Shown: piece by piece, positions 26,859 through 32,234 of the stretch
Numbering within the stretch: position 1 is the first letter of the stretch
How the letters are laid out: each line of letters begins with the position of its first letter
From: an uncultured beta proteobacterium
GTDB lineage: Bacteria > Pseudomonadota > Gammaproteobacteria > Burkholderiales > Burkholderiaceae_C
Assembly (NCBI GenBank): GCA_903844215.1
Contig: CAIMSP010000154.1
Span: 1 to 64,000, forward strand
DNA length: 64,000 bases
Direction: 5' to 3'
Made by a program: the position numbers and the translations under genes
The notes under the pieces: model-generated
Database searches by the model: none
What the model was told of the DNA's origin: nothing
Seen by the model: only the letters and a program-made list of their open reading frames with translations

Positions 26859-26911
26859 CCTTGCGGGACAGACCAAGAGTGACGCGCAGCGAACTTTGAC
26901 CTGTCCTCAAC
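26859..26911. repeat. Dispersed 52-bp hairpin repeat, copy A
   Basis: The copy begins CCTTGCGGGACAGACC, contains AGTGACGCGCAGCGAACTTTG and ends CTGTCCTCAAC. Its ends pair as GGACAG/CTGTCC. It fills the gap between the HD-GYP stop (26856) and queA (26926). Copies B and C lie at 32086-32137 and 32161-32213. Confidence 0.85.
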
Positions 26912-26925
26912 CGACGAAGAAACCC

Positions 26926-27987
26926 ATGCGCACCTTTTTTCTGAGCGATTTTGATTTCGCCCTGCCACCCGAGCTGATCGCGCAACACCCGGCGGCCCAG
27001 CGCAGTGCGGCGCGCCTGCTCGACGGCACACAGACGACGCCCGTGGACCGCATCTTTCACGACTTGGCGGCGCTGTTGAACCCGGGTGATCTGCTGGTCT
27101 TCAACGACACCAAAGTGCTCAAAGCGCGCCTGTTCGGCGAAAAGCCCAGTGGCGGCAAAGTGGAGTTGCTGATCGAGCGCGTGCTGGGCGGCAACCAGGT
27201 GGCGGCGCACATGCGCGTGAGCAAGAAGCCCGAGGTGGGCACCACGCTGCGCCTGGTCGGCAGCGGGAATCTGAGCGCCACCTTGCTGGGCCGCTGGCCC
27301 GACGCCCAGGGCGCGTTGTTTCGCTTTGTGCTGAGCAACGACGCGGGCGACGACCCGCACACGCTGATGGAACGGCACGGCCATGTGCCGCTGCCGCCCT
27401 ACATCACGCATGCGGATTCCGAAGAGGACGCACGCCGCTACCAGACGGTTTTTGCCAAACACCCTGGCGCGGTGGCGGCACCCACGGCGGCGCTGCATTT
27501 TGACGAAGCGCTGTTGGCGCAGATCGCCGCGCGCGGCGTGCAGCACGCCAACGTCACCCTGCACGTGGGTGCGGGCACATTCCAGCCGGTGAAGACGCAG
27601 AACCTGTCCGAGCACCAGATGCACAGCGAATGGTATGACGTGCCGGTCGCCACGCAGCAGGCGATTCATGCCTGCCGCGCTCGCGGCGGGCGCGTGGTGG
27701 CGGTGGGCACCACCACCGTGCGCACGCTGGAGTCGTGGGCGCAATCGGGCCAGGCCAGCGGCGACACGCGCATCTTCATCACGCCGGGTTTCGAGTTCCA
27801 GTGGGTGGACGTGCTGATCACCAATTTCCACCTGCCCAAGAGCAGCCTGATGATGCTGGTGGCGGCTTTCGCGGGTTACGAACGCGTGATGGCGCTGTAC
27901 AGCCACGCGATGGCACAGGGCTACCGCTTCTTCAGCTACGGCGACGCGATGCTGCTTGCACGACAATCGCCGCATGCTGAAGTTTGA
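26926..27987 (+). CDS. queA: S-adenosylmethionine:tRNA ribosyltransferase-isomerase
   Basis: A 353-residue cytosolic enzyme that transfers and isomerises the ribosyl moiety of AdoMet onto 7-aminomethyl-7-deazaguanine in tRNA to make epoxyqueuosine. Conserved blocks are [14 protein letters not shown] at the start, [25 protein letters not shown] and [18 protein letters not shown]. The ATG at 26926 gives the family start. Its stop overlaps the start of tgt by 14 bases, so the two queuosine genes are translationally coupled. Confidence 0.97.
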
Positions 27988-29125
27988 ACTCCTCTCCACC
28001 GATACCACCTCCCACGCCCGGCGCGGGCGCCTCACGCTGAACCACGGCGAGGTGCAAACGCCGATCTTCATGCCGGTGGGCACCTACGGCACGGTCAAGG
28101 GCGTGACGCCGCGCTCGCTGGAAGAAATGGGCGCGCAGATCATTCTGGGCAACACCTTTCATTTGTGGATGCGCCCGGGGCAGGACGTGATGCAGCAGTT
28201 CGGCGGTCTCCACGCGTTCGAGAACTGGAGCCGTCCGATCCTCACCGACTCGGGCGGATTTCAGGTCTGGTCGCTGGGCGAGATGCGCAAGATCAGCGAA
28301 GAGGGGGTGCGCTTTTCGTCGCCGGTGAACGGCGACAAGCTGTTTCTCACGCCCGAAGTCTCGATGCAGATCCAGACCGTGCTGAACTCCGACATCGTGA
28401 TGCAGTTCGACGAATGCACGCCCTACGAAACCAAGGGCAAGCTCACCACCGAGCGCGAGGCGCGCTACTCCATGGAGCTGAGCCGGCGCTGGGCGCAGCG
28501 CTGCATCACCGAGTTCGACCGGCTGGAAAACCCGAACGCGCTCTTTGGCATCGTGCAGGGCGGCATGTTCGAGAACCTGCGCGAGGAGTCGCTGGCCGCG
28601 CTGGTGGAGATGGACCTGCCGGGCTACGCCGTGGGCGGCGTCAGCGTGGGCGAACCCAAGGACGAGATGCTGCGCATCATGGCGCACACGCCGCACCTCT
28701 TGCCTGCGCACAAGCCGCGCTATCTGATGGGCGTGGGCACGCCGGAAGACCTGGTCGAGGGCGTGGCCTGCGGGGTGGACATGTTCGACTGCGTCATGCC
28801 CACGCGCAACGCGCGCAACGGCCACTGGTTCACGCGCTTTGGCGACCTGAAGATACGCAACGCCCGACACAAAACCGACGCTCATCCCGTGGATGAGACC
28901 TGCAGTTGCTACACCTGCGCGGGTGCCGCTGGCTCGGGTGGTTTCAGCCGCGCCTACTTGCACCATCTGGACCGCTGCGGCGAAATGCTCGGGCCCATGC
29001 TGGCCAGCGTGCACAACCTGCACTACTACCTGAACCTGATGCGCGAAGTGCGCGCGGCGCTGGACGCGGGACGCTTTACCGAGTTCCGGGCGCAGTTCAA
29101 GGCGGATCGAGCGCGCGGCGTTTAG
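27974..29125 (+). CDS. tgt: tRNA-guanine transglycosylase
   Basis: A 383-residue enzyme that swaps guanine-34 of GUN-anticodon tRNAs for preQ1, the step before QueA. It has the TIM-barrel active-site segments [12 protein letters not shown] (catalytic Asp) and [18 protein letters not shown], and the zinc motif CSCYTC with a later His. A short Gly/Ala-rich insert (AGAAGSGGF) follows the zinc cysteines, where most homologues are more compact. The start ATG at 27974 lies inside the end of queA. Confidence 0.97.
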
Positions 29126-29128
29126 ATG

Positions 29129-32084: not shown

Positions 32085-32085
32085 A

Positions 32086-32137
32086 CTTTGCGGGACGGAC
32101 CCAAGTTACACGCAGTGAACTTTGCTCGGTCCCCAAC
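32086..32137. repeat. Dispersed 52-bp hairpin repeat, copy B
   Basis: Begins CTTTGCGGGACGGACCC two bases after the metH stop, contains CACGCAGTGAACTTTG and ends CTCGGTCCCCAAC. Closely similar to copies A and C, but the terminal stem is less perfect (GGACGGA against TCGGTCC). Confidence 0.85.
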
Positions 32138-32160
32138 AGATCGTAGCTGTTGGATGTTCA

Positions 32161-32234
32161 CTTTGCGGGACCGACCAAGCGTGACGCGAAGTGAACTTTG
32201 CTCGGTCCTCGACTGATTGAAATTGCGGGACAGG
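32161..32234. repeat. Dispersed 52-bp hairpin repeat, copy C, with partial copy D
   Basis: Copy C (32161-32213) begins CTTTGCGGGACCGACC, contains GTGACGCGAAGTGAACTTTG and ends CTCGGTCCTCGAC. Its terminal stem GGACCGA/TCGGTCC is perfect. A truncated copy, TTGCGGGACAGGG, follows at 32223-32234. B, C and D occupy the whole gap between the convergent metH and phaM genes. Confidence 0.85.

Follow-up and report, generated by a model that had tools for sequence, protein, structure and literature searches.

A REP-like hairpin repeat at gene ends in Burkholderiales and its possible mobilization by a RAYT-type Y1 transposase

The window analyzed here is a stretch of 64,000 nt from the start of a contig (C154) in the draft genome of an uncultured beta proteobacterium (4.05 Mb in 187 contigs). 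A preliminary description had reported three copies and one fragment of a short hairpin family with a shared core in this window, all placed directly after stop codons. All four were found, and they account for every exact occurrence of the core TTGCGGGAC in the window (four, always on the + strand). The relevant features are as follows, where R1 denotes our model of the repeat:

26854 to 26856, + strand: TGA stop of the gene preceding copy A, read from the sequence as the end of a 482-codon open frame
26858 to 26911, + strand: copy A, full hairpin repeat (R1 70.7 bits, E 1.1e-15, member of the training set)
32082 to 32084, + strand: TAA stop before copy B, read from the sequence; the C-terminus is LLAPNL or MLAPNL in four relatives of the genus
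32085 to 32137, + strand: copy B, first unit of a head-to-tail array (R1 66.4 bits, E 1.9e-14, member of the training set)
32160 to 32213, + strand: copy C, second unit of the array (R1 67 bits, E 1.2e-14, member of the training set)
32221 to 32234 (about), + strand: left-end fragment of a third unit, with an exact TTGCGGGAC at 32223

The fragment had no match of its own in the genome-wide R1 search. Copy A occupies the gap between a gene which we take to encode an HD-GYP-type protein and a downstream start codon at 26926, presumably that of queA. The gene ending before copy B is presumably metH, and a match to the SAH riboswitch is located upstream of it at 29221-29298 (Rfam, 53 bits). Direct placement after a stop codon holds for copy A (TGA) and copy B (TAA), but not for the fragment or for copy C, which lies in the same gap as B, head to tail with it and 75 nt past the metH stop. 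The two stem changes that had been noted are real: one pair is A-U in copy A and C-G in copy C, and copy B has a single G.G mismatch.

We built a covariance model and searched the genome and its relatives, which bore out the idea of a dispersed family. Copies elsewhere in the genome were recovered by a pattern search, and R1 gave 37 matches in the draft genome at E<=1, of which 34 were at E<1e-5. In an alignment of 23 copies the hairpin comprises 21 pairs, with 92.9% of cells paired, and pairing fell to 31-46% when the partners were slid by one to three columns. Eight of the 21 pairs have changes on both sides, and none of 500 column shuffles reached the observed covariation score, a result that is not a probability because the copies are related. 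Neither of the two outcomes named beforehand as refuting the description, a lack of more copies or a lack of covariation, was obtained. Most of it is in the inner stem, where one pair is C-G in 12 copies, U-A in 8, and U-G in 1; the outer pair that differs between A and C is A-U in 18 copies, C-G in 1, and unpaired in 4. The family had been described as one without a known name, and we also found none: no Rfam model matched the window copies at the gathering threshold, the six matches obtained in 5 loci at E up to 10 did not cover the repeat, no relevant paper contained its sequence strings, and word searches of the literature gave no name.

The consensus of the repeat is C-TGA-RACC-TTGCGGGACAGACC-variable tip-GCTCTGTCCYCAAC-TGAYTARRR, in which the tip often carries a GNA loop. 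The palindrome is 31-57 nt long with near-inverted arms (TTGCGGGACAGACC / GTTGRGGACAGAGC), and the tetranucleotide 5′ of the stem is TTGC. The arms TTGCGGGACAGACC and GCTCTGTCCYCAAC show little variation among the copies of this genome. They were fixed by choice in the copies found by pattern, and the invariance of the outer stem in alignment A4 is partly a matter of choice as well, since 21 of its 32 rows came from an exact-arm search. The tips differ between lineages, yet are largely self-complementary. Among 237 unique sequences, a C(GNA)G loop closes 148 (GCA in 84, GAA in 49, and GTA in 15); d(GCGNAGC) is a very stable DNA mini-hairpin. The left flank has the consensus TGARACC and the right flank TGAYTARRR, the latter also being present between the units of arrays. 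Arrays are built head to tail, with 60 neighbor pairs within 250 nt in the same orientation and 1 in the opposite orientation.

The position of the repeat relative to coding sequences was assessed after excluding later array copies and copies with less than 200 nt upstream, which left 69 of the 73 pattern-found first copies and 32 of the 33 from this genome. In 75 of these 101 usable first copies (51/69 pattern-found and 24/32 from this genome), the end of an open frame of 60 or more codons lies 0-8 nt upstream of the core, compared with 580 of 16000 random positions and 926 of 4290 random CTGA sites. In a further control, antisense ORF stops were found at the right end in 19 of 60 pattern-found copies and 4 of 32 from this genome. 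The spacing from stop to core peaks at 4 nt (46/75), where the stop is TGA in 44 of 46 cases vs 254 of 447 (57%) long ORFs in the same loci. TAG is rare (3 of 75 fused copies vs 92 of the 447 long ORFs), and TAA stops are found at varied spacings. A TGA at 4 nt was also present ahead of 5 of 22 later array copies and 11 of 26 first copies with no detected ORF stop, against a background of 0.015, and some of these 11 may be stops of genes shorter than the 60-codon limit. The TGA would accordingly appear to be part of the element or of its target, rather than of the host gene alone. On the other side of the repeat, 39 copies were classed as followed by a co-directional gene, and in 29 of them the first suitable start codon lies 5-26 nt past the repeat. 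Stops of convergent ORFs are piled up 3 nt past the right end (14/27 and 15/39 copies in two counts), but this is doubtful, as 10 of the 15 also have a co-directional frame and the antisense frame may be its shadow. Copies were found at junctions of genes that we take to be groES-groEL, fusA-tuf, and etfB-etfA.

Within the family Burkholderiaceae_C, R1 matched 76 of 299 genomes and 41 of 141 genera, with at most 19 scored candidates per genome. The exact two-arm pattern occurs in at least 120 stretches of GTDB contigs. Among 80 listed loci, the host records are titled Burkholderiales, Burkholderiaceae, Comamonadaceae, beta-proteobacteria, or by genus, the genera including Rhodoferax, Variovorax, Polaromonas, Limnohabitans, Hydrogenophaga, Ramlibacter, Roseateles, Pelomonas, Paucibacter, and one Thiobacillus. 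In a survey of the order with a second model of the repeat, R2, limited to 13 scored candidates per genome, 9 of 399 genomes matched, 5 inside the family and 4 outside it, the latter at E 1.7e-8 or weaker. In one genome outside the family (L408), the repeat is between genes that are presumably fusA and tuf, and is opposite in orientation to the preceding gene; judged by eye, the same orientation was seen at L412 and L414. At L410, also outside the family, a tandem hairpin of a related yet distinct kind (TTGGGCGACAG..CTGTTGCCAACTGACTAG) lies between two genes, again presumably fusA and tuf. One 78-nt query from L176 had no match at E<=1e-3 in 72,556 plasmid and 50,697 phage records.

Genomes with the repeat tend to carry a Y1 transposase gene (PF01797), mostly an open frame of about 230-300 codons, usually one per genome (G000 has two matches). 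At E<=1e-7, a PF01797 match was present in 72 of 76 genomes with R1 matches and in 114 of 223 without. As the four repeat-bearing genomes lacking it are 70-87% complete, we turned to near-complete genomes (>=90% complete, <=5% contaminated), among which the gene is present in 68 of 68 with the repeat vs 103 of 199 without. Counted by genera, the only way in which kinship was handled here, the figures are 39/41 and 61/100. The Y1 gene is evidently not sufficient for the repeat, given that about half of the genomes without matches have it, and the PF01797 model, which matches IS200 transposases too, cannot alone separate them from RAYTs. In 6 of 9 loci inspected, the gene is upstream of apparently one and the same gene.

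For the sequence context of the RAYT-type genes, 26 of 27 loci (L100-L126) were used, L102 being left out as no RAYT ORF was recognized in it. The core TTGRGGWCAGA, which was written after inspection of some of these flanks, was present no more than 250 nt from the gene in 15 of the 26 loci; there were 20 occurrences in 12,796 nt near the gene and 1 in 52,049 nt farther off, and three scrambled cores had no matches. A random-window control (144/1600) contains the repeat itself and was set aside in favor of this near-versus-far comparison. Of the 20 flanking cores, 3 (L100, L101, and L118) are TTGGGGACAGA, the right arm of the main family, and 17 are TTGGGGTCAGA, which is one base off and is the right arm of a minority sub-family (L063, L406, and L416). 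The L100 genome, with TTGGGGACAGA beside its RAYT gene, had no R1 match. The left-arm core was not seen beside RAYT genes, and a scan of 30 Y1 loci for the full R1 hairpin gave none, the best E being 0.5 in an IS200-type locus. These data provide fair evidence, but not proof, that a RAYT acts on the repeat.

We searched four genomes of the genus for the ends of 24 ORFs; 20 sites were usable, and L033, L051, L053, and L064 gave no usable orthologue. The 72 comparisons at these sites comprised 29 with a full element, 6 with the left core only, and 37 with neither within 13 nt of the stop, although some of the 37 hold remnants when judged by eye; in such remnants, only the right end is left after the stop. 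The element is at exactly 4 nt in 23 of the 29 filled comparisons and at 3 nt in 3. C-terminal length matched that of this genome in 27/29 filled comparisons and in 32/37 unfilled ones (e.g., at LLHV, IIERN, LQTKV, KRSQT, and KIIA). The stop was TGA in 23/29 filled comparisons vs 30/37 unfilled ones, so among these relatives of the genus filling makes no difference to which stop codon is used. At the site after what is presumably the EF-Tu gene, G173 lacks the repeat and has a TAA stop, the filled G000 and G299 have TGA, and G061 has kept TAA with the repeat at 9 nt. Some filled groES sites end in VVE, VVETK, or VVEA vs the usual VVEK, and in G299, which is unfilled after the gene preceding copy A, the last residues differ, so that both of these sites are less clean. 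At L038, L048, and L060, the genes overlap or nearly do so in a relative that lacks the repeat; in the filled form, the repeat has ATG(A) to its left and a start codon (ATG) to its right. What look like CTGA or ATG duplications may have arisen in other ways. At L055, presumably rimM-trmD, the repeat was flagged in this genome and in three of the four relatives; in the remaining one, a divergent version was recognized by eye. Close strains provided no insertion event visible at base level, and in three genomes of a neighboring genus, compared by DNA search, the empty sites were too diverged for the junction to be read.

The groES-groEL junction was surveyed more widely, with a match in 142 of 150 genomes; 90 loci were read in addition to 4 chosen for carrying the repeat. 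The repeat is present in 4 of 74 resolved loci not chosen for it, one of these being the source genome of the query, and 18 of the 94 loci were left unresolved, at least 2 of which (G072 and G114) have a model match just after groES. A second palindromic repeat, with GGGGTCAGA/TCTGACCCC cores and of a type found in RAYT flanks, was observed nested in the tip of the stop hairpin at L032 in G299 (L339), at L041 and L066 in G061 (L361 and L398), and at L067 in G000.

On balance, and with little more than even confidence, we favor the interpretation that this is a REP-like, non-autonomous mobile repeat of Burkholderiales, mobilized by a RAYT-type Y1 transposase and landing at stop codons. Copies would be moved as single-stranded DNA hairpins by the transposase. 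Insertion at CTGA, or CTGA brought along by the element, together with loss of harmful insertions, would leave copies at gene ends, and the TGA of the repeat would often become the stop codon of the preceding gene. The GNA loop and the co-occurrence with the Y1 gene point to such a DNA-level mobile repeat, and the 17-to-3 split of the RAYT-flank cores lowers our confidence in it. The lack of a full hairpin in the 30 Y1 loci scanned and the opposite orientation of the copy at L408 also speak against it. The preliminary description had argued from the paired stem changes that the folded form matters. Maintenance of a hairpin is supported, but RNA folding as the thing that matters is not: stem mismatches over the 237 unique sequences are 33 G.T vs 52 A.C, with the ambiguous junction pair G8.U50 set aside and the relatedness of the sequences making these numbers a lead only, and there is thus no wobble excess on the mRNA strand by which selection for an RNA fold would be shown. 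It seems unlikely to us that the repeat is a cis-acting RNA family, kept because its fold after the stop governs mRNA stability, translation termination, or coupling, with mobility only secondary. This view would explain the stem covariation, the location just past stops and, in 29/39 copies, only 5-26 nt ahead of a co-directional start, the copies at the groES-groEL, fusA-tuf, and etfB-etfA junctions, and the conservation at L055 (flagged in this genome and three relatives, divergent by eye in the fourth). Besides the lack of a G.U excess, it is opposed by the 37 of 72 comparisons with no core flagged within 13 nt of the stop (a few with remnants by eye), by the scarcity of the repeat at groES-groEL (4/74, including the query source), and by the existence of remnants and nested insertions.

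Alternatively, the repeat may be a MITE of an ordinary insertion sequence, with the arms as terminal inverted repeats and a short CTGA/ATGA target duplication. We judge this a little less probable still. The near-inverted arms, the TGA on both sides of the consensus, and the ATG(A) and ATG flanks at L038, L048, and L060, where the empty form is a (nearly) overlapping junction, are all as expected of a MITE; yet an unsystematic look revealed no gene bounded by repeat ends, the single 78-nt query went unmatched in the 72,556 plasmid and 50,697 phage records, and it is RAYT flanks that the core marks instead. Intrinsic transcription terminators would also be placed past genes, but the arms are not followed by a T run (the tail reads TGAYTARRR in the consensus), and the next co-directional start is often only 5-26 nt away (29/39), which makes this the least credible of the explanations. 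Scarcely more credible is identity with the BRE, the Betaproteobacterial repeat element of Hot et al., 2011. As described in that work (PMC3110155), BREs are mostly intergenic, occur in tandem copies, look mobile, and overlap with our repeat in taxa (Polaromonas and Rhodoferax), but the full BREs of Bordetella are 75-91 bp long with 69% G+C and some lie inside genes, as opposed to a palindromic core of 31-57 nt here. By description, the BRE is the nearest named repeat that we found for these bacteria, being longer and, in Bordetella, more G+C-rich.

The REP/RAYT systems of enterobacteria, Pseudomonas, and Stenotrophomonas resemble the repeat described here in consisting of short extragenic palindromes, dispersed in many copies per genome, with a Y1 transposase gene in the genome and a related core beside it. 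Classical REPs have a GTAG/GGAG-type tetranucleotide 5′ of the hairpin, whereas our repeat has TTGC before the stem and no tag of this type. It also differs in forming head-to-tail arrays (60 vs 1) in place of inverted pairs (REPIN/BIME), in its fixed spacing to TGA, in that the full hairpin was not found beside the RAYT gene, and in numbering tens and not hundreds of copies in this genome. We call it REP-like because two classical REP features, the tag tetranucleotide and inverted pairing, are absent. Integron attC sites, which act as single-stranded DNA, likewise place a hairpin just after the stop codon of a gene.

With respect to function, the stem starts 4-8 nt past the stop codon. According to PMC12306157 (citing its ref. 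17), E. coli REPs located no more than 15 nt from a stop codon stall ribosomes and lead to mRNA cleavage. The location of the stem inside this 15-nt zone makes an effect on the expression of the preceding gene plausible, and the hairpin would probably lower or tune that expression and loosen the coupling to the next gene. A more speculative idea, which we put forward tentatively and regard as doubtful, is that the repeat is a portable TGA-plus-hairpin module: RAYT would set it at gene ends, its TGA would replace or become the native stop, overlapping genes in operons would even be separated by it with both remaining readable, and translation termination and coupling would be reset in bulk. If the favored interpretation is correct, a widespread repeat for which we found no name sits at a fixed distance of a few nucleotides from stop codons, some of them in core operons such as groES-groEL, etfB-etfA, and fusA-tuf, and a RAYT gene that is usually present once per genome would be tied to a genome-wide target. 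Such a repeat would also offer many natural pairs of sites, with and without a post-stop hairpin, in which effects on termination, mRNA decay, and coupling could be compared. Other palindrome-like stretches, e.g., ATAGCTGCTAGCGC.. and ATCGCGCAGCGAT.., were recognized by eye in groES-groEL spacers of other genera (L437, L439, L444, L446, L452, L454, L455, L463, and L465), as if this junction gathered hairpins.
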